64,000 nt of DNA from Bryoerythrophyllum caledonicum (taxonomy: Eukaryota > Streptophyta > Bryopsida > Pottiales > Pottiaceae). Below the pieces are notes generated by a model. It did no database searches, was not told where the DNA came from, and saw nothing but the letters and a program-made list of their open reading frames with translations. The stretch is taken from NCBI GenBank assembly GCA_963971425.1, contig OZ020515.1:16384291-16448290 (forward strand), in the 5' to 3' direction. Shown here piece by piece: positions 4,714-51,005 of the stretch. Position 1 is the stretch's first letter. Every line of letters starts with the position of its first letter. The translations under genes were made by a program, and so were the position numbers.

Positions 4714-4763
4714 ATAATTACCCAAAATATGTCACACACTACTTCTACCTCAACAATTCATAC

Positions 4764-5239: not shown

Positions 5240-6430
5240 GGGGATCGGAGGCTGTGAGCTGGGCTCGGACTGCCGCTAGGACTTTGTTTGTGTCGTGGGG
5301 ATGAGGGAGGATGGGGTGGCTGGCCTCCTTACGTATAAGCTCGCTCAACGAGGGGATTAGCTTGCCCTAGGCATAAACCCTTGAAGGCTTGAAGCACTAC
5401 CCTCCTTAACCCTTAAGGTACTGTATATTGTAGTCTAGTGGTTTGTAATTCTCAAAGTTAATCGAAATTAACCTTAAGCGAGTCCACCTAACCAAATCGT
5501 TTCCAAGGATTTTTATCGTGCATCAAACTCTTAAATCTTAACAACACTTCACACTTAATACCTAAGCACATCCTGGAGGATGGCTTCCCCGGTACCTTAG
5601 TAACCGGTAACAAGTAACCACAAGTGTTTAATTTAAACTCTGTTGAACGTCAGAGTAGTTTTCCGGTAAGTTGTTGCAGTGCTCGGAAAGTCACTGTTCT
5701 CCGTTCTCGCAGTTCAGAGGCCACAATATCCACAATCTAACTCTACACCTTGAAAGAGTTAAAAATGTTGCAGCCGGTTAATGGTCTTTACAATCTACTG
5801 GAAACTTGTCCTTGTAAACTGGCCACCGAAGCCCGGGTTCCAAATACAACTACATCCAATGAATCAATCAAAGAAAATACAAGACTCACAACAATCTAAT
5901 GCTAAGAAAATCACATAAGCAAGACTACCATCCATGGGGATCGTTGGAACTCATTCACTGTAAGGGTAGAAACTCCGAAATACTCCGGACTCAGGCTTAG
6001 CCGAGATCTCTCCTGGTGTACGAAGAGGGGGGATATCACTCCTCCTCCCCACCAATCCAAACACTTCCCACTTAAGGGAGGCTATCATAAATAGCCGTGG
6101 GCTTGCTGGATCCCATCCGGTAGGCAACTCTTTCCGGTCCCATCGGTGAAGGGTTTGAAGTAGATCTCGGATTTTACTCCACCTATATAATTTGGATATC
6201 CTACACCCTCCGAAAGCCTCTACTTACACTCAATCACATAACACTCAACAAGCCACAACCTTGCACATCCTAGCAAAGACTCACCAGGAGGACTCAACCC
6301 TCTCTCCCTCTACTCACACAAGCTCAATAAAGACTCTAAATACAAGCAATGAAGGCAGGACACGAGCAAAAGAACAAAGAGAAGAGTACTTAACACAAGA
6401 TCACAAGGCTCCTTAAGTACACAAAGGCTA
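5240..6430. other. non-coding stretch between patch 1 and the 65-bp array
   Basis: No convincing gene. CCGGTAA-type phrases (for example near 5,590-5,610) also occur inside the neighbouring A1 element, so this is probably the 3' part of A1. The left boundary of A1 could not be fixed. Confidence 0.35.
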
Positions 6431-6432
6431 CT

Positions 6433-6617
6433 AGCTACCCTCCACTCTAGATCTCCTAAAGGTGGAAATGGCATCTAGAGAGTGCACTAAAGTCAATAAC
6501 TACCCTCCAAAAGTAGATCTACAAAAGTACAAAATGCCATCTAGAGAGTGCAGTAAAGTCAATAGCTACCCTCCAAAAGTAGATCCACAAAAGTACAAAA
6601 TGGCATCTAGATCCTAA
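6433..6617. repeat. tandem repeat, 65-66 bp unit, ~2.8 copies
   Basis: Units beginning AGCTACCCTCC or AACTACCCTCC start at 6,433, 6,498 and 6,564. Each contains an ATGGCATCTAGA-like box and AGTGCANTAAAGTCAAT. It lies just beyond the 3' end of the A1 gene. Confidence 0.75.
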
Positions 6618-6871
6618 AATTAAGGGTAGCCTAGTCACCGGCGGATTACTGGTAGACCGGTAAACCGGAAGACTTCCGGTCCTAGACCGGTAAACATTTT
6701 CCTAACAAAAGTAAGTAGCCGGAGAAACCACTCAAGTGGTAGAGACCGGGTGTACAACGGGGCCCCATTGACATCACTACTTTCATCCTTGTCTTTATAT
6801 CTAGCAACTTCAACAACATCCCATCAATCGGTGGGATAAATCAACAATAACACATAATATGTAACAAAGGC

Positions 6872-8418
6872 TCAACTGGAAGACTCATCCGATTGATCCA
6901 TAGAGGGATTGTCAAGAAGGTTGGAAATACCCACATGGTCAAGAGAATCCACTGGAAGGTTGGATGTCTCAAACGGGAGGTCTACCGATAGATTGGGAGT
7001 AACCATCAATAGGTCAGATGTATCTATAGATATATGAGGAGCCTCCATGAGATCAAAGAGTATGGCCACTGAAGACTCCACCAAGGAATCCGGTGGTGAG
7101 AAAGGAAGGTCAACCGATTCCTTCTCGATAGGTTTTACCGGGAGGCCTCATTTCCTCTCGTAAACTTTCACAATCCACTCCTTGGAGGATGGGGAATCCA
7201 CCCGACTCACCGGTGTTTGAATCAATGGGTCATCCTCCTCTTCTGAAGAAGATTTTTCACAGACAAATTTTCTCTTCTTCCGAGGCGCACTCCAAGCTTG
7301 CAATGGTATGGTGGTACTCGGTTGACCGGCAAGGAACTTGGTCAACGTCACGATAGTCTCTTGGGAAGTGGTCTTCGAGTCATGGAGCTTCTATTGAGTG
7401 GCCCGGAGATCCCTCTTCATCTTGGTCACTAGTTCTAGGTTCTCCCGAGCCGCGGGTAAGATGTTGCGGTTGTCTTCCACTCCAAAAATCTTCCGGAGAA
7501 TCATTTGGAGACTCCTTGCCTCCATTAGCTCTATCTCCATCTCTTGGACCTCCCGGGTCACCTCCGGGAAGAACTTGGCTATGTTGTCCACGAGAGTGAG
7601 TTACTTGGATGCCCCGGGTGGTGGTGGTGGTTTCTCTCGGTGAGACCGGGAGGTCCTTCCTTCACTGGAGATTGCTTGAGATGAAGAGGCTTCTTGTGGA
7701 TTTGCCGGTATCGCAACCGGGACTCTGGGCGTTGGGGAGGAGCTCGGGGAGAGTGATCTAGAGGAGCCATTCCTTGTCTCCACATCTTTTTCTCTTCCAA
7801 CTCCAGACAATGGTGATGCTCATACAAATGCATGAGATATGGAGTCAAGAAGGTCTTGGTGCATCCACCTTGTTGAATTGTCCGGAGTTGAGGCTAAATT
7901 GCCTCAACCAACAAAGACCCCCAATCCGGAGAGGATTCCCCAAAAATTGCTCCGATGTAGGCGGTGGCTAACCGGGCCGTGACTCTTTCACGTTGGTTGG
8001 GATGGAGGATTGGGTTTAGAAACTCAATCGCCCTTCTCAACCGATGATTTGTGAATTGGTCACTCCGGTAGCATTCCGACGCATTGTATGGGCTCAATAC
8101 ATGTTCTTCTAGCAGCACCCGGTTGACTCTGGATATCCATCCCTCCCCCTGACAAAGAGAGTACACTTTGCGCCATACCTCCATGGTCCAAGACCGTGGA
8201 TTGGCCCGGTAGACTCCCCAAGGTGTCCCCGGAGGCTGCAACTCCGCCACCGCACGTCCCCTCTGGAATACCCACGGCTTCTCGTAGAATCCTCTGCACC
8301 CCATCCGGATATGGTCCCCTTCCAGCTGTTCACCTTTTGTAGTTCCCTCCCACTTGTTATGGTCACCTTTCGAAAGTGTTATCGACATCGGTAGAGCCAT
8401 GTTGTCCGGGATGGACAA
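6872..8418 (-). pseudogene. family A gene, copy A1, decayed
   Basis: This minus-strand gene of about 515 codons is broken into several open pieces (8,418-7,894, 7,848-7,579, 7,591-7,391, 7,351-7,148, 7,084-6,872). It matches A2 (28,061-29,729, plus strand) in order: a GC(R/F)xFxxxPWxF start, then WTxxxWxxVY, GEG and SR, then RRxxEFLxPI, then TxxLAxxxxGAxxGE, then a MYHMYEH-like box (here LMHLYEH) followed by charged helices. The tail is Ser/Pro/Arg-rich with an acidic SSSEEEDD run. No nuclease, polymerase or transposase motif is visible. The matching architecture in two divergent copies argues for a real protein family carried by a mobile element. Function unknown; a gag-like or accessory role is speculation. 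Confidence 0.6.
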
Positions 8419-8419
8419 A

Positions 8420-9400
8420 CTTCGTGAAGTGCCTGTACTTCCACCAATCTCCCTATTAACTTATCACAAACTCCGGTCTTGCCCGGAAAACATAAGTATA
8501 TCGAACAATCGGTCTACTTTCTCTGGAAAACTTTACTAGACTAACGTGGATGTAGATATTGCACGTATTTAGTAACACGACAAATAAAACAACATCACAA
8601 GTCACCATTTTGAAGAGGTGACATGGGAAACAAGAAGTGGGAAGAGGGCTTCCCGGTTGACCCGGAAGACTGGGAAAAAAATAGAAAAATTAGGCAAGAC
8701 CTAGTGATGAGGGAGGAAATGGAGAAAACATAAAGGATACCTTTGCCACAAGGCCGGGACAATAGTAAACCAACGGTGGCATACTAGGGTAGTCTTGCAA
8801 GTGCAAGAAACTATGATCTAGGTCATACAAGGTCTAGATAGAGTCTACCTGTAGACTTTTTTTAGACTGGAGAGGAAGTAACCGGAAATCACCTTGGTAG
8901 CAAAAGAGAGAAAAAGACTTAACAAATAAGGAAGTTTGAAAAAACAAAAGAAACCCAATATGGGGCAAAAATCACATTTTTCCCCAACTTATTGCCACCT
9001 CCTTGTTGCACCCGCAACCTCCTTCAATATTGGTCTTGTCTCTTGGATCTTCTCGCCGCGGCCACGAACCTCCTTGCACCACTTCGACGCCTAGGAATCT
9101 CCACCAACTTATCAAAAAGGCTCCCCACCACCAAACCCTAGGTGTCACTAATCTCCTCCAAACCCTAGTTTGTGCGCACCTCTTCCACCACCTTCAAGAC
9201 ACTTGAAAAAGCCTCCCAAAAGCCTTTTCAACCCCTTTGAAATCTTCTTAAAAAATCTCCTTCAAAAACTTCTTCAAAAACTTCTTCTAAACTCCCACTT
9301 CCTCAATTAAAATCCCAACTTCTAAACCTACAAGAAAGAGAGCGAGAAAGAGATAGAGAGGGGGAAAAACTAGATAGGGAGAGATTAGAGTAGGAGGGAG
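8420..9400. other. upstream region of A1, no separate gene
   Basis: This is the presumed 5' leader of the minus-strand A1 gene. It includes purine- and pyrimidine-rich stretches (around 9,230-9,400) but no supportable reading frame. Confidence 0.35.
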
Positions 9401-9479
9401 AAGGAAAAAATTGCGAGAGAGGGGGGTCGAGGATAGAGATGCGACCTATGGGGGGTTAGGAAAGACATTGCAAGGAAGG

Positions 9480-9655
9480 GAGGCAGTGAGGGCAACTAAC
9501 TGGCTGTCCCCTCTAGCGAGTGCCATTGGTCAGTTGGCTACCCGACATATGCCCGGGTGGGCGCGGTCCGGGTTGCGCCGGCACTTAGATCTCACAACTC
9601 GGCCCGGTGGCCATGCCTCGGTCGGGCGGTACAACCCTCGCCGGCTGGGGGGTAC
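9480..9655. repeat. GGGCGNGTAC-type GC patch 2
   Basis: A GC-rich patch upstream of A1 contains GGTGGGCGCGGTCC near 9,556 and GGGCGGTAC at 9,624. It stops abruptly at an AT-rich microsatellite (TAATTAATTAATTAATTATT, from about 9,656). The cores resemble those upstream of the B genes. Confidence 0.45.
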
Positions 9656-9659
9656 TTAA

Positions 9660-10146
9660 TTAATTAATTAATTATTATTTTATTTTATTTTATTTTTAAT
9701 TCTTTTATTTATTTTCTTTATTTTCTTGATTTTCCCTTTTTATATTTTGTTTCATATAACTAAATCCTTATTCTTTCAAATAAGAATTTGTGTCTACAAT
9801 AATCAAAACAAAAAGAAGGAACTCAAGCTAACCTCCTTATTAATCTAACTACCTTCTAAACTTAACTAATTAATTTAGGCTAAGTGGCGATTTTAAGAAT
9901 ACATCCCGGAACCTCTTCCATGACTTTTTAATTTGTTTTCCGGGAATAAAACTAGTGAGTTTTAGACCCGGTTTTATCACCACTATAAACCTAATTAAGC
10001 ATTTTCCTATTTCCATTATTTGCTATCTTATCTATTTCTACCCAACACTAGCTACTTCTCTAGTTAATTAAGACTAAAAATCACAATTTAACTAATTTTT
10101 TGGTAGGGGCAACCAAGTGGGAGTTTTAGACTCCCACACTGTGACA
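9660..10146. other. AT-rich non-coding stretch, probable right part of A1
   Basis: There is no coding signal. A short hairpin GTGGGAG-TTTTA-GACTCCCAC lies near 10,110-10,131, immediately before R3-type sequence begins at about 10,147. The right boundary of the A1 element is probably here but no target duplication was found. Confidence 0.3.
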
Positions 10147-23790: not shown

Positions 23791-23885
23791 CCATGCGAGG
23801 GGTGAATTTAATCAAGCCACTATAAAGGGGACAAAATATCTTCTCAATTCATTGGGCTCCTCTCAAGTGGCTCCTTGTCCTAGTA

Positions 23886-26595
23886 CATTGGGGTGACACC
23901 CAAATTGGCACCTTGTGCAATTCCAGGGATAGTGCCCACACTGCTGCCAACTTTGACACCCTCCTAAGCGCTGGAAAATTGTTATTTATACATGAAATTT
24001 TAGACACAAATCACTAATATGTTGACGACATGTGTACCAGATTTTAAAGTTAGAAGATTGATAAAAAAAAAGATATTCAAGATTTACTAACAAGGGGTAG
24101 CTAAAAGAAATGCTTCACAGCTGCCAACTTTGACACCCTCCCAAGGATTGAAGAAATTTTTTTTTCACATGAAATTTTTGGTGTAGAAATATCTTTATGT
24201 TTTTTATGCATGGGAAAAAATTATAAGTCCAAAAGACCCACAAAAAATATGATATTCCAAATCTACCAACAGGTGTAGTTGTGAGAAACAAAGGGGAGAA
24301 TCGTTTCACAACTTCCAACTTTGACAGCCTCCTTAGGGCTGAGAATCTCTTATATCAATATGAATTTTTCTCGCATGATCTTTATGATGTTGATCACATG
24401 TATGGAAATTTTCAAGGCAAGAAGATACACAAAAAAATAGTTATTTTAAATCTACCAACGTGTATGTCCTCCATTAACATCAATCACTGCTTGTAACCTA
24501 GAGGGCATAGAATGACATAATTGAAGGAGCTTTGTTTCACTAATTGACTTCCACTCTCTTTCAAAAACTACCTTCAACCCATCTATGTTTCTAGGACATG
24601 CCTTGTTACGTTGTACTGCATCTTTTAGAATCTTCCACAAGTTCTCAATTGGATTGAGATCGGGAGAGTGTGCAGGCCAATTGAGCTATTCAAGAAGGCG
24701 CTGTTGTCTCCATTCTTCACATATTTTGCTACGATGGACGGGTGCGTCATCTCCATGAGCACTACATGTGGAACTTTAACCATAAAATGAAATAATTCCC
24801 CTTCGTAAACCACTTCCACAAAATCCTTTGCAGAGCGTTGATCTTTAAGCATAAAAACAAGTTTTGACTTTTGGCCTCCAGCAAATGCGCCCCAAATCAT
24901 CAAGGAAGTCTGTCCACTTTTAAAAGTAGGAACTATATAATTTGATGAATACCGCTCATATGAAGTTCTCCAAATACGAACTTGTCTCGAATTCTTCCCA
25001 ATTTCAAAGGTAGATTCATCTGTCCAAATAAAACGCTTTCAATCTTTTGCGCTCCATCCACGGTACTTCTGAGCAAAAACCAGCCTATGATATATGTGAC
25101 GAGGTGTCAAAAAAGGTTTTTTGACTGCAATTCGACTGAAAATGCCACTTCTATGTAAGAGCCTTTGAATGGTACGTCCACACACTGGAGTAGGGCATAA
25201 ACTAGCAATCTCTAATACTGACGCGCAACGGTTATTTTTTGAGAAACGCAAAATACTACGCACATCTCTATCACTAAGGTTTGTAGTGTGACTTCCACCA
25301 CAAGGTTCGTGCTTGTAAGTTCCATTTTCTCTAAATTTTTTCACCAACCTCTTAATTGTTCTAATGGACTTTGATAGTGGCTGTAATTTGAACTTGAGTA
25401 CTCTCTCCCTCACTCATACCTATAATACATCCACGAATTTCATCGGAAATTGCCATCTGAAATATGTTGAACTTTCTTTTACTAGGCTAACAGAACCTCA
25501 AACTCTCATTAACAACATTAACAATTTTATACAGAATCAGTCACTCAATCACAACATTTAGTCCATTAGGCATAATGACATGCACATCATTCAGCCTAGT
25601 AAGAATAACCACATACACATCACTCAACATGCATAAGCAAGCATGACTAAATTACTCATGCATCACATCACTCATACAACACATCACTCCATGTCTCACA
25701 CATAACACATTCTTTCTCTTTGCTCACACCATTACTCCAACATCCAATGATCACAAATCACATGCAACATTCCCTTAAGTTTACACAATAGTGCTCAATT
25801 GATATTCAGAGGGGGAAACTTCGTCATGCGTGTATAATGCAAGTGGTTTCTTCTTGATGTGACAACTCCACACTTCTACATTTGGATGATACTGATTTTT
25901 CTTAGATGCATTTATGATTAGACATTGTGTCAAATGGATAAGTTCAATGAGGAAGCATGAGGTGTCAAAGATATTTCAATATTTTCACCATGTCCTTGAA
26001 TTGGTTATTGTCATTACACACATTGATAGATTTAAAATAACTATTTTTTTGTGTATCTTCTTGCCTTGAAAATTTCCATACATGTGATCAACATCATAAA
26101 GATCATGCGAGAAAAATTCATATTGATATAAGAGATTCTCAGCCCTAGGGAGGCTGTCAAAGTTGGAAGTTGTGAAACGATTCTCCCCTTTGTTTCTCAC
26201 AACTACACATGTTGGTAGATTTGGAATATCATATTTTTTGTGGGTCTTTTGGACTTGAATTTTATCCCATGTGCAAACAACATAAAGGTATTTCTACTCC
26301 AAAAATTTCATGTGAAAAAAAAATTTCTTCAATCCTTGGGAGGGTGTCAAAGTTGGCAGCTGTGAAACATTTTTTTCAGCTACCCCTTGTTAGTAAATCT
26401 TAAAAATCTTTTCTTTTATCAATCTTCTAGCTTTGAAATTTAATACACATGTCGTCAACATACCAGTGATTTTGTGTCTAAAATTTCATGTATAAATAAC
26501 AATTTTCCAGCGCTCGGGAGGGTGTCAAAGTTGGCAGCAGTGTAGGCAATATCCCTGGAATTGCACAAGGTGTCAATTTGAGTGTCACCCCACTG
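23886..26595 (-). mobile_element. Tc1/mariner element with ~580-bp inverted repeats
   Basis: The element is 2,710 bp long. The left end begins CATTGGGGTGACACC at 23,886; the right end, inverted, begins CAGTGGGGTGACACT at 26,595. TA target duplications lie at 23,884-23,885 and 26,596-26,597. The terminal repeats span about 23,886-24,465 and 26,018-26,595 and are highly similar. Each holds three spaced copies of a CCAACTTTGACACCCTCC-type box (left copies at about 23,945, 24,121 and 24,306). The interior encodes a broken DD34E transposase on the minus strand. Confidence 0.9.
24452..25456 (-). pseudogene. Tc1-type DD34E transposase, broken
   Basis: The gene begins MAISDEIRGCIIGMSEGE at 25,456 and shifts frame at once into a helix-turn-helix segment (SIRTIKRLVKKFRENGTYKH). 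The DDE core follows: FIWTDES carries the first Asp; a VLME-D region carries the second, where a small deletion shifts the frame; HSPDLNPIENLWK carries the final Glu. Counting across the shift gives 34 residues between the second Asp and the Glu, as in Tc1-type DD34E enzymes. Two stops interrupt it: TGA before KRFIWTDES, where a Trp is expected, and TAG before LNWPAHSPD, where Gln is likely. It ends at 24,452. The element cannot make transposase but its long ends could be mobilised in trans. Confidence 0.85.
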
Positions 26596-26699
26596 TACTA
26601 TTCGTACTTGCTAGGAACAAAGAAGAGGGCCACCACATTGGAGGGGGGAGGTTTTGCCTTTTTTTTTATTTTAGTTTGTGTAGGGTTGCGATTATTGCA

Positions 26700-27480
26700 A
26701 TGGCCGCTGATCGTAGGACTTGAAAGCGCCCCGCGTATGTTGATTTAGATGCTCCAGATGCATCTGAGCTTCCACCTACAAACATTGCAGAGTTGAGCTG
26801 CAATCCTTCCGATGAACCAAAGGCACCGTCCAAGATGGCAAAGTAGAAAATATATGCGCACGAGAAAGATGCGGGGTATCCATCGAAGGAGTATACTGCA
26901 TTTCTTCGAGGTGTGGCAATACAATATTATTGTCCATGGTGTGAAACTGACGTGGTGCGATTCCGTCAAGTTTATTTAGAGAAGGGAGAGCCAGAAATCA
27001 TGTACCTGTGAGTCGACCTCCAGTCAAAATTCCAGTGCGCTTTGGAGAGTTCTGAATCGTACAAAGATGCATACGCCATGTACCACTATGCCTCATTCAT
27101 GGAGAGAATAATCACTCAATGAGTCAATGCACGAGTAAGGCATTGCATATATTCGATTGCGAGGTGAAAAAACCTCACCAGGGCCAGCATCTGCCTCAAG
27201 ACTTGGAACTCCGCAAGTTCCTCGAAGGTATGAAGACTATAATTGGCAGGTTCTCAACCTCTCGTACGAGAGGCATGCCTTGGAATGAACAAGCAATGAA
27301 GTCAGCCATGGAGATGCATATGTTGCACAACGTGCAATTCCTTCGAGAAGATATTAGAGTCAATGGACTTTACCGATATGACGCCGTTGGTGGATATGAA
27401 AAGGTTTGAAAGGTCCACATCGTGGATGTGAGAGCCATTTCGGCATACATGGAATTTGCCGGAAAAATGCCAACTGCGTT
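26700..27480 (+). pseudogene. kinase-like gene K, N-terminal part, broken
   Basis: ATG at 26,700 opens a frame reading YVDLDAPDASELPPTNIAEL, then YPSKEYTAFLRGVAIQYYCP and ETDVVRFRQVYLEKGEPEIM, with TGA, TAG and TGA stops inside. A frameshift near 27,119 leads to LHIFDCEVKKPHQGQHLPQD and GLYRYDAVGGYEKV, another TGA, then MEFAGKMPTA. The sequence stops at 27,480, where element A2 begins, and resumes in the same frame at 31,051. The N-terminal portion is not a recognised domain; CPWC could be half of a metal site. The reading direction and frame match the kinase-like C-terminal portion. Confidence 0.6.
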
Positions 27481-30400
27481 TGTCGGAACCTAGTTTTTAA
27501 GGAATTGTAGCCTCATTATAAGTAAAGGGCGAATGGGTGGTGATTTTTTGGAAATTAGAAACACCCCCATTGTAAATAGATAGTTTTACTAAAAACTATT
27601 GTAAGTCCTCGTTGCCTAATACTGAAAACCCTATAAACGATAAGAAGGAATCCGGGTATCAGTGACCAGATTCCGGTCTCGATAGGTTATCACCAGGATC
27701 AAGATTTAACAGTCAGAACCATAACCAGATTTAACGGTCATAACCGGCCGCGGGTTCGGATTCGAGTAATGATTATCGGACTGTGAATAAATAATTAATC
27801 CTAGGGTTCTTCTTTTCATCTTTCTTAGTGAGTTTGGAGTTGGTTAGCGGCAAGCGAGCAAGCCTGGGCAGCTAAGGGTCGTGTGTGTAAGCATTGTAAG
27901 CCAGTATTGTTGTCTTTGTGGGTTAGGGTTTCAGTGCGGATTCTTCCGCGGATCTCTTGAGAAGAATCCGGGTCTGAATCCCGTCGAGGGTTGGCTGCGA
28001 TGATGTTGAAGAAAGCGACCAGCAGCAGGGCGGCGACGGAATCGTTCATGAACCTCCGGAATGTGGTTCCAACTTCCGGTGATTCCCAAATCCGAGAGCA
28101 ACCGGAAGGCGCTCGATGCGGATTTGAAGATGATGGGTTGTTTCAGATTCCGCAAGCAGCCATGGGGATTCAGAGAGGACGCGATGGTTACGGAGCTGCT
28201 AGACAGAGTCTCCAACGAGTTCGATGGCACCATTCGGCGAAGGCCGAAGAAGTGGACTTCAACAATGTGGAACGAGGTATACGGATTTCTGTCGCGGGGA
28301 GAAGGTATGTGCTCACGCCGGGAATCTGTCATTGATGGGAAGCTTACGCAGAAGGCAGATCCGAAGGACGGCCTGACGGTGGCAGATTGCAAGGATCCGA
28401 GGGTTCGGAGGGTGATGGAGTTTTTACTTCCAATCGTGTATCAGGATCGGCCTTCAAAGACCACCACAACATTGGCCAACACGATCTGCGGAGCGTACAC
28501 CGGCGAGAGGAAGGTGGCGTGAGGAGACATCGCGGGAGAGTTGGTAAGTAAGTTCTTAACCGGATTGGGGAAGGTGCGACCTACTCCAATCTCCTCATTC
28601 ATGTATCACATGTATGAGCACGAGGACCTGCTGCGCGACAACGAGAAGACCGCCTACGAGACGGCCAAGGTGCTAGCAAGCCACGGCTGAGAGGATGCGG
28701 AACCAGATGCAGAACCCGAATAGGAACTAGATTCGGACTCGGATTCCTCCGATGACAAAATCCAGCTGACGTCAGTCAGCCCGAGGAAGAACAGGAAGCA
28801 GACCGAGAGGAGCAATACGACTCCTTTGATCCGCCGGAAGAAGGTTAGCAAGGAGAAAGACAAGGTTGAAGGAAGATCCTTTCGACATGATCGTAGAAGG
28901 ATACGAGAACGCTAAGGAGACTTACAAGTGGATCGAAGTCATCTTGGCCAAGGTGTGCCGGATTGCGGGTGACGTGGGAGCAGATGAACAGTGGGGACAT
29001 CTGGAGCAGAACCTGCAACCCCGGAACGTGCAGGAACTGGAGGCTCGGCTTATATCCTTGAAGAACAGGAACCGGAAAATGAAGATGGCCATGGACCAGA
29101 AGGATGTGGAGTTGGTTGCCGCGATGGGTATGGCAAACGATTCCGCACTTTCTCTCACCCGTGTGACCAAATTTGTGCAGCAACCAGGTAATGTATTGCT
29201 AAAGGCGAGGTTATTTGACGTCGGATTCATCGAGGCCTGGAAGCTTGACGGTCCGGTGGCGAAGAAGCTTGTTGGGGTGTTGGTGGGGTACCACTCCAAG
29301 ATGGAGAAGGCGTTGGAGGAGTGCCGGAAGATTCACGTCGGGATCTTCCGGGATGTTGGGAAAGGTAAGCGGAAGGTGTCTCCAGAATCCGAGCCAACGG
29401 AGGCGCTTCCTGTTGTGCAGGCGGTTTTGGATCCCGAAGCCGAATTCCGAACTCCTGGTCCGGAACCGAGGAAGCGAAAGGACGAGCTCCCTCCGCTGTC
29501 TCAGCTGAAGACGAGGGTTCGACAAGGGAAGGCAAACAAGGTGGAGGTTGACACTCTGGACTCGCGAGTTTCCAATAGACGAGCCTTGTTCGTTTCCGAG
29601 AGAGTAACCCCCATGCGGCAAACCTGGACGGCTTCGTGGACCATCACCCGGAAAGTGGAGGAGAGAACACCTGCGAGCGAGCAGATCAAGGTGCAGAAGC
29701 CAAAAGACAAGGTCGAAGAGGAAGAATAGATTTCGCTCCAAGTTGGAACTTCAACGGTGAAGCTCTCGGACTCTTCGGAGAAAGATGAAGGTCAGAAACA
29801 TGAAGAAAAGGAATAGGGTGATCCCCTCTACCTTGTGCGCAGGAAACTAGCCGCAGGAGGTTAGTAGTCTAGTGGTAGGAATAAACGGTCACAGCGGTGA
29901 CCCGGTAATTAGGGTTTTACCTGGAATCGGAACTTGTTCCGGGAAAGGTGGATCGGATCCGTAACTTTCGGATCTGGTCGAGGAATAGATAGGAAGTGGC
30001 GGACCAGCCGTTAGGAACCATTTTGATCATGGATTCTGGATTTTGTGTTTTGCTCGACGGAAGAGTATTTAGTTGTTAGTGGCGAGGCTGTTAGGATCTT
30101 GTTAGTTGACCTAATCGTGAGAACGTGGGGAGATTGCGGACCCAGGTAGCTTGGATTTTGGTGTGTAGGTCGAACGCCTTTCATGGCCGCCGCCGCAGCT
30201 AGAATCCGATTCCCGTTATATTAGTGTTAGGAAGAGGGTTTGCAAGCACCCAATTACGGGACATCGTTCCTAAGTTGTATGAGATGTACTGCCCATTTTT
30301 AATGTTGATTTTGTGTCCTTCTATCTTGACACCTATCTATCTCTTTTCGTGTGAGCTCCGAAGTGGTCCTTGTCACGGACGTATCCCATTCCGAATGGTT

Positions 30401-31050
30401 GTGTAACCTTTGCGAAGCCTGGATGGTGGTGGAAATGAAGAGGTGAGGGATCCGGGTTTATTTGAAATTCCGCGAAAGGGTTAGAAACTGTAACTGGTCA
30501 TAACTGGATCCGGATCCTCTAGGATTTCCATCGTTGTAGTAAGCGAAGGGTCGGAATACCTCTTGCGTGACCGGCTGTCCGGTAGCATCCCTACAGTTGT
30601 GAGGAGGTAGACACCACCCTGGTGCGTGTGTTTGTTATGTGTTGGAGTATTAGGGTTGATAGTGGAGTCTTTTGCCACTCTAATCTACAAGAGAAGAGTT
30701 TTGCACACCGTCCTTTTCCAAATAGGACGCGTCCTGCGATAGCTAACGTCATGAGGGAAAACTAGAGCTAGAAACTGTGGTGTATAGTTTGATATTCCCG
30801 GATCCGGATACAAAATCGGAAACAAGAAAGTAAGGAGAGGCAATCTGGATAACTGGAAAAGTGAAGTATCCAGATTGCGCCTGATTGAATACGAAGAATA
30901 AAAGGAAGTTTAGGAAGGAGTCATAATCGGATTGTCCTAACCTAACTAGCTTCACCTCAATCCCTAGAACAATATACGAGTCACCACTTGGGATGTTTAA
31001 GTCACTTAAAACACTCAAGAGGATGCACTTGCAACAGCCGTGTTCCGACA
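27481..31050 (+). mobile_element. element A2, 3,570 bp, TGTCGGAAC inverted ends
   Basis: It starts TGTCGGAACC at 27,481 and ends GTTCCGACA at 31,050 (9-bp inverted ends, TG...CA). It is flanked by GCGTT (27,476-27,480) and GCGTC (31,051-31,055), a 5-bp target duplication with one change. Deleting A2 plus one duplication joins the two halves of gene K in one reading frame, which independently confirms the boundaries. No long direct repeat pair, reverse transcriptase, integrase or transposase was found inside; the only gene is the family A protein. It is either a giant solo LTR containing a gene or an unclassified inverted-end element. Confidence 0.75.
28061..29729 (+). pseudogene. family A gene, copy A2, partly decayed
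   Basis: The start at 28,061 is the first ATG after an upstream in-frame TGA. Order: MMGCFRFRKQPWGF, KKWTSTMWNEVYGFLSRGEG, RVRRVMEFLLPI, LANTICGAYTGE, a TGA where Arg (CGA) is likely, SSFMYHMYEHEDLLRDNEK, further TGA and TAG stops, an acidic DSDSDSSDD stretch and a basic region. A +1 shift near 28,866 leads to a 288-codon open part with coiled-coil-like helices (NVQELEARLISLKNRNRKMK) and a charged tail ending KDKVEEEE at 29,729. It matches A1 in order and spacing. The codons are GC-richer than the element flanks. Function unknown; the protein looks structural (helical, charged ends) rather than enzymatic. Confidence 0.65.
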
Positions 31051-31872
31051 GCGTCCCATCCAAAGGAGAAATTTAAACAACGGTCTCAGGAGGCCATGAT
31101 ATGTCATGTTGTACACCCAGGAGTTATAAAGTTTTGGGCAGTGAATACAAAAAATATGGAAGCGTACACATTGTTGCGGAATCGTGGTAGCTGGGTCCAT
31201 TTTAGAACCGTCGATTCAAAGGCAAATCCGGCGGCTTCACGCAACTCAATCATTTGAGCTCCATACATTTCGACGGAGGACACTGTACAATTTTTAGCCT
31301 TTCGGAAGACTAGAGCAAGACTTGCTTGGGCTTTGATGTGCACCACGGCCCAAGTCCACAAGGCAAATGTCATTTACAATGACATTGCTCCCACAAACGT
31401 GCTTCTCCACTTTCCTCCAGAGAAACCAAGGTCCGTTTTCATTGGCGTTTGTGACTAGGGAATTGCAAGTCAAGTGTCACACAAAGAGCCATCAAAATAT
31501 GGATTCCGGACTGGGACGGAGCTTGACAATCAACGTCGTAAACGACATTGGGTAGCTCTAGAGTTGTCGGCCCTTCAAATTCAGCCCACAAAATTTGAAA
31601 ACGGCCTTGGATGTGATGCAACGGCAACACCAATACACCCATCTCGCCGATTCATACTTTGTAGGGTGGATGGCTAGAGCAATTAGGTGAAAGAATCTGA
31701 CTCAATATTTTTCAAATCAGCCGTCAACTACGCAGCTTTTCAAGTGAAGATCAACAAGTTACTAGAGCAAGATCCAATCGAACGTCCGTCAGTCTCCAAA
31801 GTGGTTGATGAGCTAATGGAAAAATCATTCAACTTTGAAGTTCCAGACGCTTGCTTCCGCTATCAGATATAG
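31051..31872 (+). pseudogene. kinase-like gene K, C-terminal part, broken
   Basis: The frame continues from 27,478. Kinase landmarks are NVIYNDIAPTNVLLHF, like the catalytic loop with Asp and Asn kept, then GVCD-stop-GIA where DFG is expected (TAG in the middle position, probably from Trp TGG), RHWVALEL in the place of the APE region, and EQDPIERPSVSKVVDELM, like the closing helix of kinase domains. It ends at a TAG at 31,872. A second TGA precedes APYISTED. The glycine loop and catalytic lysine region were not identified, so this may be a divergent kinase or pseudokinase. It is probably a repeated or captured gene rather than a core host kinase. Confidence 0.6.
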
Positions 31873-32034
31873 CAATTTTGGCTTAGTGTTATGATAGTCA
31901 AAGAATTTTTTTTATTCTTTTGCAATATGTTCTAGCATTGTCATGTAACGGTGTGTTTTGCCCATCTCGTAATAAATAAAAAGATTAACATTTTATAATC
32001 TTGCTGATGTGAAGTTTATGCATGTTAAGCCGTC

Positions 32035-32504: not shown

Positions 32505-32699
32505 CATACAGCTATTACATAGTGCCATTACTGTTACGATCTTGTTGTTACTGTTATACTTTGGTAATCAGTTTAGCTAGGCATTCAGTTACATTTACAC
32601 TACTGCAGCAGTCAAAGGACTCGTGTTTAGCCCCTTTCAAAAACTATCAATGTATGTGGATATTCCGAGCAACCTAGACCTTGTCTTGTCAACTTACTA
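32505..32699 (+). repeat. Copia 5' LTR, truncated at its left side
   Basis: The sequence from about 32,507 aligns with 36,873-37,077 (shared CATTACTGTTACGA, CTTGTTGTTACT, CAGCAGT, GGACTCGT, TATCAATGTATGTGGAT, AGCAACCTAGACCTT). The first ~45 bp of the 3' LTR has no counterpart here; GGACGG repeats stand in its place. The right limit is approximate. Confidence 0.65.
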
Positions 32700-32883
32700 A
32701 CTTGTCAAGTGCACAGTGAGTACATCGTAAGAAGTAGTGAAACAGCGTAGACTAGTGTGACTTTGGTTGAGCATAGCTTCCAAGCAAAGGTTACGTAGTA
32801 TTGAGAAAGTAAAGGATCAATAGAGCTCAACTCACGAGGAGGCTTAAGTATTGCATACAGAGAGGAAGAGTTGAATAGACCCG

Positions 32884-35800
32884 ATGGCAAACACCAATCC
32901 GGTCAAAGGCGGAGACAAGTTGAAAGGCGTAGAAAACAACTACATACAGAGTTTGAGAGTAAGGTCCATCCTTCGTGCCAAAGGTTCGTGGAACATTACA
33001 AAGACAACGTTTGTATGAGCAACATATCCGACTCTCATAGACGGGAAGCAGCTCATCGAACACCAGGTTTGTAAGAGGAAGGGGCCTGCATGCATGGTAA
33101 TATTCATAGCGGTCGCGGATGACCACGTCAATGTGGTCGCGGATTACCACGTCAATGTGGTCGCAAGTCACTCCAATCTTGCACAAGCGTGGAAGGCATT
33201 GAAGGATCAGTAGGCATCCGGGAATCAGTCCCACGTCCTCACTCTCATGGAACAACTGCAAACGTTGAAGCTGAAAGAAGGAGGATCCATAAAAGCATAC
33301 ATCAAGAAGGCCAGAGATTTGAAGAACCGACTTAGTGGCATGGGCAAGATGATAGCAGACAAGAATCTCAACCAGATCATTTTAAACGGGCTGCCGCAAT
33401 CGTACAACAGCACCATCCAGACACTCACACACGTTGGAGCAGAGTTGACTTTTGACACGCTTACCTCACACTTAATATTAGAGCATCATCAACATTTTCC
33501 TCGAAGCCAGCTCCACGGCGAGGAGGAAGCTCTTGCTTTAAGCTTTAGGCATTAAGCAAACTTTGGGCGAGGCCGAGCACAAGGGAGACAACACCAAGAA
33601 AAGTTACCAAGGCGGCCGCTAGCCGAGCTACCGACCTCCCTACCTAGAAGCTGCTCAATCAATATCAATGGCAGCCTCTTGCCGTCCAGGCACCTTAATA
33701 GCACTAGTACCAACTCCACCACGATCAGATTCTCATGTGCAGCTTCCACTGATCATCTGCTATGCTTTTGGACGTGCCGGACATATCGTGCGATGTGAAC
33801 TATGAGCCACATCAAAATCAGCAGTATAGAGCAAACCATAACACATGGTACCTTGACAATGGTACCACGGCGCATATAGCCGCTGACTTTGAGAAGTTAG
33901 ATAGTTAGTACGCCCTGTAAGAACGCTAGCATGAAGACTTGTGGTGGTTAATCTCACACAGTGATGGGCACATGAAATTCTACTCTACACATTGGCACAG
34001 GAGAAATAAAGCTCGAGAACATTCGGTATGTCCCTAGCATGAAGAAGAATTTGGTGTCAGTTGGTTCAATTGCGGGTGCAAGCCACACAATCACGTTCAC
34101 GGTGTCCCACTCCTGGGTGCGAATGGAATCAAAGTGGTTGTTGCGGGACTCACAGACCCACGCAACGGACTCTACTTCTTCCCAAAGTCTCATCAGGCTC
34201 TCATTGCAGAGACGAGCGACAAAACTGATCTTTGGAGGATGGGTCACCTAGGATATTCCAACCTCAGCTACTTGTCAAGATCATAGCACATCAGCCGTCT
34301 CCCGCACATTAACGTGAAGAGTTGCGTCTGCATATGTCACTTGGCAGGCCGTCACCATCAACATCGCCTTCCTCATAGATCAAAGACAAAAGCATCTAAG
34401 CTAGGCAAACAAGTTCACCTTGATGTCATCGGCCCCATCCAACGAGCATTGCTTGGAGGTACGCATGGTATTCATTGACGATTTTTCACGCAAAAGCTGG
34501 GTCTATTTTATGAAATTCAAAAGCGAGACTACAAAAAGTTTAGAGCTTTCAATGCCAAATTTGAGGCAGAAATAGGAAATTAAATGAAAGTTCTCAGATC
34601 CCACCAAAGAGGAGAGTACCCGTCAGACGACTTCAAGCACTACTACTTACGCAATGGAATATGACTCAAATTTACCGAGGCCAAGACCCCAGAGCAGAAC
34701 GGCATCTCGGAGGGCGGCAACCGGATACTATGGAGCGTGCTAAGAGCACCGCCTTTTACTACAAGTTGCCACATTTTCTTTGGACAACGCCCGTGAGCAT
34801 GGCCAACTTCTTCATAAATCACAGCCCGACAAGAGAAAACCTGGGCGTCCCACCTCAAGCAAAATACACAGGTGACGTGCTCAACCTCCTCAATCTCAAA
34901 AAATTTGGCAGTATCACCCATGTGCATGTGCCCAACATCGTCACACGGAAACTAGACAGCAAGTCACGTACAACTTGTATGTTTGTTGGCTACGATGAAG
35001 AGTCAAAAGCCTACCGACTCTACGATCCGATTAGCAAAAAAATTGTGATAAGCCGAGACGTTGTGTTCGATGAGGGGCGGGTAGGCTATTACAACCTGAA
35101 CGTGTCACAACCCGGGGATACCATTTTTTCACTGCAACCATCCTTACCAGCAGATGTCATTCTCATACCTCCGCCATCAACGACACTTGCTCACCTCGAA
35201 AGTGTCGATCAGGAGGCCGCCAACTTTCTGTTCCAACCAGAGAACGAGAACTCATTCGATAGTGAAGACCCATCACCGTGTATTGCACCTGCAACTGCGG
35301 CTCTAGATCCGGAAGCAACTGAAGAGCCGTCACCAAGAAGAGCATCTAGGATAGCTAGTAGGGCGTCACCAACCCAGCTCAATGGAGCTCAACGTGTCCT
35401 CATGAGGCACTCTCTTGACGCCGCAAGTGCCCAGGGCAACGACGTCCAGATGTTGCCTCACCGCTATCCTCAACATAAGAGGCGGCCCTCAACCCGCCTC
35501 TGTGACCATTGGACGATGATGAGCACACATATCACGATGTGATTCAACACACGGGATGGCAAGAAGCAATTGCCAAGGAAATCGATTCAGCCCTCAACAA
35601 CAAAACTTGGGATATTGTGGACATGCTAGGTGAGCGACAACCAATAACAACAAAGTGGTTGTTTAAAGTAAAGCACAATGGCGATCAAGTGAAGCTAAAA
35701 GCCAGAACCGTCGTCCGTGGCTTCCAACATAGGAAGGGCGTGGATTTTAAGGACATCTTTGCCCTGGTGGTGCGTTGGTCGACCATCCGCACCGTCCTCG

Positions 35801-36483
35801 CCCTCGCTGCTGCAAACAACTAGCCCCCCTCCCAGCTCGACGCCATCACCGCTTTTCTAAATGGCAAATTAGATGAAACGGTTCTCATGGAGATTTCTAA
35901 GGGATTTCCCAGCGAAGGAAATCCATCCAAAGTATGTAGAATCAAACAAGCCCTACATGGATTAAAAGAGGCTTCCAAAGCTTAGTACAGTTGCATATAT
36001 GTCTGGCTTGTATCGCAGGGCTTGACACGCAACAACGTCAATCCCAATCTCTACTTTGGTACACGGAACGGAAAAAGAATCATTGTCCTTTTGTATATGG
36101 ACGACCTCTTGCTGACAGGTGTTGACTCTGAGCGGATCGCGGAGCTCAAATCCGAGCTTAAAAAGGAATTCTCCATGACGAATCTTGGAGACGCTAGCGT
36201 TTATTTAGGAGCAAAAATACTTCAATTGAAGGGAGGGATCCTCATCACGCACATCGCCTTCATCAAACGCCTCTTGTAGAAGTCCAACCTTCTGAATTGT
36301 AACTCAAGCCGTCTGCTAATGGATCCACATGTCTCACTGCAGCGACACATTTAAGGAACACAAGTCATTAATCTGATGCAATACAGGTCGTTGGTGGAGA
36401 GCCTAATCTATATTACAAACACAAGACCCGATATCTCATACTCTATCAGCTGTGTTGCAAAGTATGAGGAAAACCCTTTATGA
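32884..36483 (+). pseudogene. Ty1/Copia gag-pol, heavily decayed
   Basis: Order typical of Copia. Gag starts at MANTNPVKGG (32,884), and a gag core at 33,247-33,555 reads SIKAYIKKARDLKNRLSGMG and ILNGLPQSYNSTIQTL. A knuckle-like CYAFGRAGHIVRC lies near 33,760. A protease-like WYLDNGTTAHIAADFEKL near 33,850 has Asn where DSG or DTG is usual. Integrase fragments run from about 34,410 (HVDVIGPI ... TPEQNGISE), continuing to the 34,661-35,542 open piece. Reverse transcriptase runs from 35,509 (GWQEAIAKEIDSALNNKTWD, LDAITAFLNGKLDE, LLYMDDLLLTG, then an RNase H-side linker). Many stops and frameshifts interrupt every domain, so it is inactive. Confidence 0.88.
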
Positions 36484-36827
36484 ACCATCTCTAGCACGTC
36501 TCATCGGCTCCGGCTCATGCCCGCGCTTAGACCTTGTTAGTCACCAAAAGCTATAGTCCAAGACTTCATCACAAACTCGACGCACAACAACCATCAAGAG
36601 CCAGATTATGAGCAACTAGATTTCGACTTGCACGTCATCAGGAACACACCGTTAGCTCATGTACATCATGCTCGTCATTACTATTGCGGCAGACCCTCAC
36701 CGTTGACAAATGCTCTATGTTGTCCCACATCTCTACCATTGCCTCCGACGCCGGACGCACTTGCGACATCCTCCGATGTCTATGCATAATCTCAGAACTC
36801 TTGCTGGTGGTCGAGTGTGAGGAAGGT

Positions 36828-37077
36828 TGTTGGACTTAAACGCACTCTCTCACGGTTAGTTTGATTGTACTATACATACAGTTGTTATATACAACCATTA
36901 CTGTTACGACCTTGTTGTTACTATTATACTTTGGTTACCAGTTTACCTCAGCATTCAGTTACTTTTATATTGCTGCAGCAGTTAAAGGACTCGTTGTATT
37001 TAACCCCTTTCACATACTATCAATGTATGTGGATTTTCTGAGCAACCTAGACCTTCTCTGGCCTCAAGTTTTCAACA
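36828..37077 (+). repeat. Copia 3' LTR
   Basis: It begins TGTTGGACTT directly after a purine-rich GTGAGGAAGGT and ends TTCAACA, giving TG...CA ends and 250 bp. The body matches the truncated 5' LTR at 32,505-32,699 with many differences, consistent with an old insertion. Confidence 0.75.
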
Positions 37078-44585: not shown

Positions 44586-46567
44586 TGTAGAGCCAAAATG
44601 GAAAATATAGTTTTTTTCCGAAAATTAATTGTGAAAAGGGTTGTAGATATATGAAGAATTAAATAACTAATGATTAAGTTCATACTAAGTAGTCAATTAA
44701 TTGGAAAGTACCTATTCATATCCAAGAATAAGGAAATAATGGGAAAAGGGTTGAATTCGCACCCTTTGGGTAGGGTGTGCCTTTTCATGAATAGATATGA
44801 AGAGATGTGAAGATTTAGTTGAATTAATATTAAAGGTTAATACTAGGGAAAATCTCTTGCCAAGAGGTGTACCTCTTGGATGTTGAGTAGAATGACTAGC
44901 TTGAATTTTTAGCATTCTTGGCCATTACCATAGCAATTCCTTGGAGGAAGATTGGAGTGAACCCTAGCTTTAGGTGAAAGAGCTAGTTGATGACTCTTAA
45001 TGTTGTAAGAGTATTTAATTTTATATATGAATATATAAATATTATTGAATTTGCATATGTAGAGTCTTGTGTGTGACTTGAGTCATATGTATAATTGCAA
45101 TATGTGAACTTCATTGAATAAATTTGACATTGTGCTGTATAAATGCAACTGCATGCATAAGGTATTAATTGTGGATAAAATTCCTATGCATGAATGCATT
45201 GTATATTTATTCTTCATGGAATAAATTAGGAAAATACCCTAACTACTAAAGTCGTGTGTGTGACCTTGTGTGTGTTGGAGCATTAATCATGAGTGTGAAG
45301 ATTAATGGAGATAATGTGAAATTAAGTGACTTAGTGCATAAGGTGTGTGATGCATAAGTACTTAATAAGATCTTAAGTGTGAGTGAGTATTATTTGAGTA
45401 TCATAAGAATAAGAGTGGAGATCTTATTCATGTTTATGCAGTTTATGCAATAAACATCAAGAGTGGTATACCTTGATGCATGGCAAGAGTGTCATATTAT
45501 GCATACAAAAAATTAGCATTAAATCTAACTTTAATAGAAGGGATTCTCTAAGGTAGGCTAAGTTGTGAGTATTAAAGAATCTATCATAAGAGAAGAAGTA
45601 AGGAACAAATCCCAAAGAAAGACTTAAGAAAAGAACATAGGAACTTAAGAATCTTAAGTCCAAATTTGGATAACATAAACTTATGAAGATTAAAACCTTA
45701 AGTATCAGGAGACCCTTAAGTTTAAGGGTTTGGACTTAAAGATTTGTATGGGTGAGAATACATGACATCATTTGCATTCAGTGAGATGCACTCCCTGTTA
45801 TGGAAGTCTTAAGACAAAAACTTAAGAACATTGTAGGGCTGAATTGATCTAAACAATACAGGTTCTTAAGAATCAGTCCTAAATGAGTAAGTGAGTGCTT
45901 AAGAACTAAGGGTCAGAGACTGTGTTCTTAAGAACATGGAGACGACCGAGAATGAAGTCTTAAGAACTAGTCAGAGATCTTAAAGACTAAATGGTAGAAG
46001 TAAGTGTAGAACACCGTAGCCTTTAAGGATTAAGTGTGGATAAGTAAACTTAAGTGGAGACTTAAGAGGTAAACTCCTCAAGACTTAAGTTAACTTGTGT
46101 GTGTGTTTTTTGAGACTAACCTTTGTCTTAAGAACGTGATCATGAGGACCGAGTGGATGGACGTGAAAAGTGGAGCGATTTTGCATGAGGTAAGACTTTG
46201 AATTCTTAAAGGTTGTAATTAAAGAACCAATGCAATGAGACTTAATGGAAACTTCCATTAGCCCAGTGTGGCAAGTGTTTAAGAATTAATGGCATAAGCA
46301 CAATCTGAAAAGGACTAATGTTCCTTCTTAAAGCACGAGAGATCTTTTGGGGTTAGATTGTTTGTGGATCCCTTAAGAGTGATGCTAATAGCCCTAATTT
46401 ACTAAAAATAGATAGATAACCTTAAGAATTAACCAAGAGAATAGCTTTAAACTACACAATTAAGCTTTAATTACTTAAAACTAGGCATATGATCATCCCC
46501 GTAACGAATCCTATGAGGTGTGGGTACACTTGGGTGTTTTCTTAGAGTGGTGAAAAATCACTCTACA
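44586..46567 (+). mobile_element. solo LTR, copy 2 (~2.0 kb)
   Basis: It is the same family and orientation as 2,717-4,713, with the same TGTAGAG...CTCTACA ends. Perfect 5-bp duplications ACTAC lie at 44,581-44,585 and 46,568-46,572, different from copy 1. Length is 1,982 bp against 1,997 bp. No open frame worth reporting. Confidence 0.85.
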
Positions 46568-46572
46568 ACTAC

Positions 46573-48968: not shown

Positions 48969-49214
48969 ATGCAGTGCCCGATCACGAGCAAGAACCAAGG
49001 GAGCCCAGCTGCGGGAGGCAAGACGCAGTGCCCGATCACAAGCAAGAACCAAGGGAGCCCAACTGTGGGAGGCAAGACGAAGTGCCCATTCACGAACAAG
49101 AACCAAAGAAGCCCAACTGTGGGAGGCAAGACGCAATGCCCGACCACGAGCAAGAACCAAACATGTGAAGACCTAAGATCCTTCCTACCTCCTTTTTTGC
49201 GGAGGAAGCCTTAA
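48969..49214 (+). CDS. short repeat-encoded ORF abutting LINE ORF1
   Basis: This 81-residue frame is built mostly of 18-residue repeats (QCPITSKNQGSPTVGGKT type) from a 54-bp tandem array with units at 48,971, 49,025, 49,079 and 49,133. Each repeat has one Cys and a KNQ motif. It ends at TAA 49,212-49,214, and the ORF1 ATG follows one base later at 49,216. The repeat length is divisible by three, so frame is kept. Whether it is translated is unknown; it could equally be a promoter or leader array with an accidental frame. No family is recognised. Confidence 0.35.
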   Translation: MQCPITSKNQGSPAAGGKTQCPITSKNQGSPTVGGKTKCPFTNKNQRSPTVGGKTQCPTTSKNQTCEDLRSFLPPFLRRKP

Positions 49215-49215
49215 A

Positions 49216-50598
49216 ATGCACTTACTAAAACCGGAATACGATGGTCTATTGCTTCTTAAAGGTATTAGGCCATTTATCCTTGACTTTGACGATGAACTTG
49301 TTATTGAAAAAGTTTGCAAGTCATACCTAGGGATTGCTAAAGGTGCTAATCTTTTTGTGAAAGTCAAAAGTGAAAGCTTGGTGGGAATTTCAGCACAAGC
49401 CCTCTTCAAGGAAATTCTTGAGAATAGCTTCCATCGTGGGCACGAGATTGAGGTCTCCGGTGTGCAAAAGAGCCATGGAGATGCACATGCGTTCATCATT
49501 GCTACAACACCTCAACAAACAAAGAAAATGCTTGTACACAATGTCACCATTAGAGGTGAGGTGTTGCAAGCAAAACAAGTACTTGACACTAAAGGAGCCA
49601 ACGGTGCGGTGGAAACCAAAGCAAAGAAAGAAGCTCTAACCCTAACCCTCTCTCCTCTCCCAATACATCTTGATGTGATGAACACCTCTAACGAAATCTA
49701 CAAGATTATGGATGGAGCCAATGTGAGAAGCAATTGGTTCCACAAAGAAGAGAGCAATTGTCACAATGGAAATGCCAATGTTTTATGTGCTAACCCTATT
49801 GTGTATAGAACCTTTGTGCAGAAGACATTTGTTTTGAATGGAAATTATGTAGACTTTGTACCACACCGAAGAAGTTTAGAGGGCATCAACTGCCCCACCG
49901 AGGAAGAAGTAAAAAGCTTCGGTTTTGATGATATTAACAACGCAATGGTCAACACCATCTCCACCTTCAAAATACAAGACAAAGATGAAGCCCTTACAAA
50001 GAAAGACATGGTGGAACTTTTGGAGGACAACAACAAGAAAATTAGGAAGGAGACCCGAGAGTACACCGACAAGATGCACAAGGAGCTCAAGGGAGAAATG
50101 GAAAACCTCCAAGATGCCTTCTTTGAATTACTCAAGAGCATGTCCGCCATCACGGGGAAGAAGAATTTACTACTTGAAGACAAAGGTCCACCAAAATATG
50201 TGAAGATCCAAGACCACTCGATGTTCATCAAAAACCATATAATACACTACAAGTATAATACTAGATATGGAATAGACTACCCTACTACTAGCATACAACA
50301 ATGCATAGTAGTATACAAATACAAAAATACATACCTCAAAAAGTGTCAAAGATATTATATGGAATACAATTTCTATACCAAATACATGTACCACAAATAC
50401 TATACACATGACTATACAAAAAACATACAAAGCAATTACAATATACTACACACATGGCCAAAAACACATACAATTACAAATACTAAATACATACATAGAT
50501 ATATACACACATATATATGTTTACATATACGAACACTTATATATATATATACACATACATACATATATATACAAACTTACATACTTTTACTACCATGA
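49216..50598 (+). CDS. LINE ORF1 protein (frame runs into a microsatellite)
   Basis: The first ~335 residues look like a genuine protein: MHLLKPEYDGLLLLKG, then KVKSESLVGISAQALFKEIL and HGDAHAFIIATTPQQTKKML, later EEEVKSFGFDDINNA. A charged coiled-coil-like segment follows (KDMVELLEDNNKKIRKETRE ... KMHKELKGEMENLQ), suited to trimerisation as in LINE ORF1 chaperones. No CCHC knuckle or clear RRM was identified. From about 50,220 the frame enters low-complexity Tyr/Thr/His/Ile codons and then the (ACATAC)n microsatellite, so the real terminus was probably near 50,215 or has been lost. Composition is more balanced than in ORF2. Confidence 0.6.
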   Translation: MHLLKPEYDGLLLLKGIRPFILDFDDELVIEKVCKSYLGIAKGANLFVKVKSESLVGISAQALFKEILENSFHRGHEIEVSGVQKSHGDAHAFIIATTPQQTKKMLVHNVTIRGEVLQAKQVLDTKGANGAVETKAKKEALTLTLSPLPIHLDVMNTSNEIYKIMDGANVRSNWFHKEESNCHNGNANVLCANPIVYRTFVQKTFVLNGNYVDFVPHRRSLEGINCPTEEEVKSFGFDDINNAMVNTISTFKIQDKDEALTKKDMVELLEDNNKKIRKETREYTDKMHKELKGEMENLQDAFFELLKSMSAITGKKNLLLEDKGPPKYVKIQDHSMFIKNHIIHYKYNTRYGIDYPTTSIQQCIVVYKYKNTYLKKCQRYYMEYNFYTKYMYHKYYTHDYTKNIQSNYNILHTWPKTHTITNTKYIHRYIHTYICLHIRTLIYIYTHTYIYIQTYILLLP

Positions 50599-50998: not shown

Positions 50999-51005
50999 CC
51001 ACAAA

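Follow-up and report, generated by a model that had tools for sequence, protein, structure and literature searches.

The window analyzed here is a 64,000-nucleotide stretch of Bryoerythrophyllum caledonicum DNA (assembly GCA_963971425.1, contig OZ020515.1, positions 16,384,291 to 16,448,290), and it contains a gene-bearing unit of 3570 bp on the plus strand (27481..31050), which we read as the probable solo long terminal repeat (LTR) of an LTR retrotransposon. The unit opens with TGTCGGAAC (27481..27489, plus strand) and closes with the exact reverse complement of the same string (TGTCGGAAC on the minus strand, 31042..31050); the inverted identity of the two ends is limited to these 9 bp. Comparison of the flanks identified a 5-bp target duplication, GCGTT on the left (27476..27480) and GCGTC on the right (31051..31055), with one mismatch and thus 4 of 5 bases identical. 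Both ends recur genome-wide, and complete copies measure 3.55–3.59 kb. A first-pass annotation, made from the letters of the window, had described a discrete 3.57-kb unit with inverted ends and this duplication, and the finding of the same borders in other genome copies bears that description out.

The unit interrupts a decayed kinase-like host gene on the plus strand, the left part of which (27056..27480) was recognized by frame reading and the right part (31056..31884) by a sub-threshold match to the Pkinase domain. Two removals were computed: taking out the unit together with 5 bp (3575 bases) gave a continuous kinase-like frame, as had been proposed earlier, and taking out the unit alone did not; for a 4-bp removal the frame shift follows by arithmetic only. 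The right flank scored 26.7 bits against Pkinase (expectation value (E) 4.5e-6), below the Pfam cut-off of 31.7 bits. Because the joined flanks scored about the same (26.0 bits, no gain over the right flank alone) and no Pfam match spanned the join, the joining of the two parts rests on the reading frame and not on a longer domain match. The end and duplication signature was itself calibrated: in the window, 10 pairs of TG...CA ends at a spacing of 1–8 kb combined 9-bp inverted identity with a match of 4 or 5 flank bases out of 5, where 30 first-order Markov sequences averaged 2.6. Five of the 10 fell within the inverted arms of a single Tc1-like element. By itself this signature is weak evidence, and it is the frame restoration and the recurring borders that carry the insertion call.

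Within the unit lies a decayed gene on the plus strand (28000..29729; start set by eye from relatives), here termed the family-A gene, with main open pieces at 28052–28522 and 28830–29729; in-frame stops and changes of frame break up the window copy. Pfam searches of the gene pieces recognized no other gene family in the unit, in agreement with the earlier statement that family A is its only gene, and as far as Pfam shows there is likewise no known mobility gene in it. Rfam at the gathering threshold and a transfer RNA (tRNA) scan returned no matches in the window. When the window protein was compared with the genome, 150 protein-level matches were scored, the best of 4369 loose candidates, many with broken frames. 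Open frames in the copies read were 565 amino acids (L052; L numbers denote loci), 583 amino acids (L051) and 683 amino acids (a younger unit within L054). No convincing relative of protein A was found in Pfam, PDB or IMG/VR, and no A protein had an integrase or transposase match in Pfam. Read by eye, the protein is rich in helix and has basic runs and an acidic linker, and its second half resembles a coiled coil.

For the recovery of further copies, the genome (437 Mb, 894 contigs) was searched at the DNA level, and the best 40 matches were scored per query. With the first 300 bases of the window unit, the best 40 of 196 candidates were 84–91% identical (the window itself excluded); with the last 300 bases, the best 40 of 236 candidates were scored. 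The match started exactly at the first base of the unit in 29 of 30 loci read, and the left flanks beside the border were unrelated among those 30 loci apart from one segmental duplication (L006/L007, the same places as L035/L036, which share the flanks adjoining the unit). Twenty longer stretches were then considered, in which full units of 3.55–3.59 kb were found at L032, L033, L034, L035/L036, L039, L040, L042 and L047; the units at L038 and L044 were longer and that at L041 shorter, and in the other 8 stretches the 3' end lay beyond the stretch. For the 12 units whose 3' end was reached, the right flanks beside the border were likewise unrelated, except for L035/L036 (for L038, 34 flank bases were available). 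A 3' end lay downstream of 15 of the 40 scored 5' ends among the ends listed, at 3.49–3.81 kb in 10 cases and at 7.3–19.3 kb in 5. The longer spans were considered as autonomous relatives; the one of these five that was read, on C10, has what by eye is a Tc1/mariner-like insertion in its middle. A further copy on C10 (L049, C10:2527500-2535100) enters a stretch of N directly after its first 300 bases, possibly an assembly gap. The earlier proposal of a terminal-sequence search was thereby answered, with 300 bp per side, by many stand-alone copies, several of them with exact 5-bp duplications, and the outcome that had been named as fatal, no other copy with the same ends, did not occur, both borders recurring in a dozen or more copies.

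Target duplications were evaluated in 14 independent units, namely the window unit, L032–L035, L038–L042, L044, L047, L051 and L052. Exact 5-bp duplications flanked 6 of them (L034, L035, L040, L042, L044 and L051), and 4 of 5 flank bases matched in 2 (the window unit and L039). Pairwise identity within this family was 81–89% (L038 and the duplicate pair left out). Three divergent relatives, at approximately 60–66% DNA identity, were also inspected, and the 9-bp inverted ends, including the 5' end of the window unit, were kept in two of them (L053 and L055) and absent from the older unit of L054.

That older family-A unit in L054 is interrupted by a second unit of 3810 bp, which carries the 683-amino acid open frame and is flanked left and right by AAAGG; directly after it, the older unit resumes. 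The protein of this younger unit shares 24% identity with the L051 protein over about 480 amino acids (E 6e-35). Its first 300 bases gave 1175 candidates, of which the best 40 were 89–97% identical (itself excluded). Both ends were fetched for 10 of these places; the 3' end was within the stretch for 6 and was not found in 4. All 6 had exact 5-bp duplications (ACAGG, GTATA, GCAAT, ATGAC, TCTAG and AGTAT), so that overall 7 of 7 testable young copies have one. The young family starts with the hairpin-like TGTGGGAATCCGTTCCCACA, and the inverted identity of its ends is only 3–5 bp; in this respect they resemble the ends of LTRs more than those of a typical DNA transposon. A target duplication of 4–6 bp at single units, and TG...CA ends with short inverted repeats in both families, are what is expected of solo LTRs.

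Selection on the family-A gene was examined using the ratio of nonsynonymous to synonymous divergence (dN/dS). The units of L051 and L052 (3583 and 3570 bp, respectively) have unrelated flanks, and their genes gave a dN/dS of 0.15 over 558 codons, versus 1.54–1.61 for the same type of ratio in wrong frames and 0.58–0.79 in noncoding parts. Differences fell at 20.6% of third codon positions and at 5.9% each of first and second positions, and dN (0.054) was about half the noncoding divergence (0.117). Comparisons involving L051 or L052 gave 0.14–0.20 throughout; in the three pairs of this type that were checked, wrong frames gave 0.99–1.68 and noncoding parts 0.41–1.16. Old window-family copies (the window copy versus ten) gave 0.22–0.38, nearer neutral decay. 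That base composition alone lowers the ratio can be read from these old copies, since wrong frames gave 0.64–1.05 and noncoding parts 0.51–1.14 in the two pairs checked; all dN/dS values are to be read with the caution that synonymous divergence exceeds noncoding divergence. Given the low L051/L052 ratios relative to the wrong-frame and noncoding controls, and the more nearly neutral values of the old copies, selection most likely maintained the gene during the spread of the unit.

The 3' ends were next compared with a 20-mer that we take to be the complement of the 3' end of plant tRNA-Asp. A primer-binding site of this type, as expected just past the 3' end of an LTR, followed 2 of 26 examined 3' ends, one in each family (25 independent ends, L035 and L036 being duplicates; a decayed end at 25.81 Mb is not among them). 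These two stand apart, the remaining 24 ends showing 11–16 mismatches to the 20-mer. In L032, of the window family, the 3' end occurs in an additional copy, and 12 nt beyond that copy lies a site with 2 of 20 mismatches. In L088, of the young family (C1:64.83 Mb), the 3' end is followed by CAATTT (6 nt) and then by TGGCGTTGTTGCTGGGGATC, with 3 of 20 mismatches. L032 was unselected among the 20 stretches, and L088 had been chosen for the same-orientation neighbor of its unit. With 25 ends and 15 offsets tried, and assuming equal base use, a single site with at most 3 mismatches has a chance probability of approximately 1e-5. When 362 kb (overlapping loci counted twice) was scanned with up to 5 mismatches allowed, just the L032 and L088 sites were returned, and shuffles gave 0.8; the evidence thus lies in position and closeness, not in number. 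The L088 unit measures 3816 bp from end to end, with both ends read, and 3 nt upstream of it there is a run of purines, AAAAGGGGG (L094, C1:64830169-64830188). With a purine run before it and a primer-like site after it, this unit looks as if internal retrotransposon sequence flanked one LTR on both sides. Recurrent CTACGACA..TGG matches were tried as primer junctions and rejected, the six read (L079–L084) falling in two unrelated repeats. The same primer-site string is found, within the very similar context AATTTTGGCGCCGTTGCCGGGGA, among LTR-retrotransposon probes for peanut that are tabulated in PMC5904367.

Taken with the TGT...ACA ends (3–9 bp inverted) and the 5-bp duplication, the tRNA-Asp-like sites in two families favor a solo LTR, because a shared type of primer site at the right place in both is otherwise hard to explain. 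We therefore consider it likely that the unit is the solo LTR of an LTR retrotransposon whose LTR, at about 3.6 kb, holds a complete family-A gene. The parent element was probably of the Ty3/Gypsy type and primed by tRNA-Asp, as far as can be judged from sequence; the assignment of tRNA-Asp primer-binding sites to plant Ty3/Gypsy elements is one that we presume. The TGTCG and TGTGG ends also agree with TGTNR, the pattern that PMC2836005 gives for Gypsy LTRs. Of the two options offered by the first-pass annotation, the primer sites, the LTR-like ends and the 5-bp duplication favor the giant solo LTR with a gene, and the undescribed inverted-end element has lost ground.

Several observations weigh against the solo-LTR interpretation. 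Six of the 14 window-family units have 3 or fewer of 5 matching flank bases (L052 counted by eye). In the window family, neither the best 40 of 196 5' ends nor the best 40 of 236 3' ends included neighbors within 30 kb, and reading through the best 40 of 1175 young 5' ends gave none either. The ends and loci examined yielded neither a complete element in which two such LTRs enclose pol nor a pol linked to the unit; the direct units around gag-pol that the first-pass annotation had asked for were thus absent from the ends examined, the nearest result being the primer-site-like junctions after two 3' ends. Exact TGTGGGAATCCG sites, which mark young 5' ends, occur at 371 places versus 61 expected from a reversed-pattern control, and the first 100 of these places include at least 4 same-orientation neighboring pairs and at least 1 opposite pair within 30 kb. 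Three of the same-orientation pairs were partly read. That at 64.83 Mb has the primer-like site, but its next site (64838310) has no purine tract before it that would mark it as the second LTR; that at 25.81 Mb has a decayed 3' end without a primer-like site; and for that at 54.66 Mb the 3' end is outside the stretch read. Eight purines directly precede 4 of the 371 TGTGGGAATCCG sites versus about 1.4 expected, which is near chance, and one of the 4 is the flank of the older unit of L054. Beyond the primer-like site of L032 lies a long interspersed nuclear element (LINE)-like insertion, with no Pfam domain there.

Comparison with known systems places the unit nearest to plant Ty3/Gypsy elements, which it resembles in its TGTNR-type TG...CA ends, 5-bp duplications, primer-site-like stretch 6–12 nt past the 3' end and solo copies; it differs in having an LTR of 3.6–3.8 kb with a constrained gene, and complete copies and pol were not found in the loci examined here. 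In mouse mammary tumor virus the sag gene is situated in the LTR. The arrangement here is alike in that the LTR contains a protein gene, which a solo LTR therefore retains, and unlike in that the gene shows no sign of kinship to sag, the host is a plant and no env or pol was seen. In TR-GAG, LARD and TRIM elements, two direct LTRs are present and enclose whatever gene there is. Judged from partial sources, they too are non-autonomous LTR-type elements without pol, whereas here a single unit is found with the gene inside the LTR. No report of a gene inside a plant LTR was found in the open-access library searched, judged by titles and the beginnings of abstracts.

A DNA element of non-LTR type with inverted ends, moved in trans by an integrase-like transposase (of the Ginger/TDD type or from an LTR element) with the family-A gene as a helper, led at an earlier stage, since stand-alone copies dominate: they were found in everything read, and the best 40 + 40 window-family ends have no neighbors within 30 kb. 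The retention of 9-bp inverted ends in L053 and L055 (not L054) despite about 60–66% DNA identity, together with the exact duplications in all seven testable young copies, would also suit such an element. In the portions of PMC2836005 consulted, Ginger and TDD elements share the TGTNR ends and the stand-alone copies, and TDD-4 and TDD-5 create 5-bp duplications; Ginger elements differ there in having inverted repeats of at least 40 bp (40–270 bp in Ginger1, approximately 50–180 bp in Ginger2), an integrase-like transposase and, TDD-4/5 apart, duplications of 4 bp. The inverted repeats here are 9 bp, and 3–5 bp in the young family; no integrase or transposase was recognized in the gene pieces searched, nor did the A proteins have any such Pfam match. 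As the primer-site-like junctions in both families also count against it, we now regard this explanation as unlikely.

Still less probable, to the point of being far-fetched, is that the family-A gene encodes a new transposase or recombinase and that the unit is an autonomous single-gene transposon. This would account for one gene under constraint in the spreading lineages, for the open frames of 565, 583 and 683 amino acids and for the want of a convincing database relative, but no catalytic pattern was seen in protein A by eye, its sequence looks helical and coiled-coil, and the primer-site junctions again speak against it. That the insertion-like border arose by chance or segmental duplication has a practically negligible probability. 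A window would be expected to hold about 2.6 instances of the end and duplication signature by itself, but more than 12 copies show the two borders amid flanks that are unrelated, and exact 5-bp duplications accompany several of them, so that chance borders were ruled out; segmental duplication was rejected as the cause of the copies, only L006/L007 (= L035/L036) having common flanks among the loci read.

The window also contains a second, divergent family-A gene on the minus strand (7894..8460; 31.6% identity, E 3e-14). A probable unit around it (5484..10140, minus strand) has its 5' end, TGTGGGAGTCTAAAACTCCC, near 10140 and shows gapped similarity over 10140–5484 to an insertion in L048/L057. 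Its hairpin-like start TGTGGGAGTCTAAAACTCCC resembles the young-family start TGTGGGAATCCGTTCCCACA, and in L048 a window-type unit harbors an inserted relative of this unit. What by eye is a Tc1/mariner-like element (23881–26600) closely precedes the kinase-like gene; its inverted ends, about 580 bp long, are 94% identical, and its minus-strand frames are decayed. At 32505–37059, a copia-type gag (Retrotran_gag_2, E 4.3e-17) is found between two 185-bp direct repeats of 85% identity, possibly a short-LTR copia element. A LINE-like element, again by eye, occupies 49195–56516 on the plus strand, with reverse-transcriptase-like frames and a strong strand skew, and its first frame matches the insertion downstream of the L032 primer site. 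A 2-kb direct repeat (2717–4714 and 44586–46568) has 85% identity.

If the unit is a solo LTR, the sequence of events would have begun with an LTR retrotransposon with LTRs of 3.6–3.8 kb, each holding the family-A gene and presumably a promoter, entering the kinase-like gene. A pol partner would have supplied a retroviral-type integrase as the agent of movement, and insertion by such an enzyme would yield the TG...CA ends and, through a 5-bp cut, the 5-bp duplication. Recombination between the two LTRs of the element would then have deleted the internal region, and each LTR left behind in this way would be a gene-bearing single unit. As for protein A, our guess is that the element uses it as an accessory protein, perhaps an anti-silencing or Gag-like factor. 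It is conceivable, if rather doubtful, that the unit instead spreads alone, having neither a partner LTR nor its own internal region, an LTR turned self-sufficient mobile gene that borrows reverse transcriptase and integrase from other elements and retains the A protein as its one selected function.

Should the solo-LTR interpretation prove true, a plant LTR-retrotransposon lineage would have placed a selected gene in its LTRs, and LTR–LTR recombination would leave behind a gene copy rather than an empty repeat. This would explain a gene family without a visible mobility gene that numbers at least 150 scored members and up to thousands loosely flagged (4369 first-look candidates). It would also call for caution among annotators who count family-A loci as host genes, and it raises the question of what role an LTR-encoded protein plays for the element.

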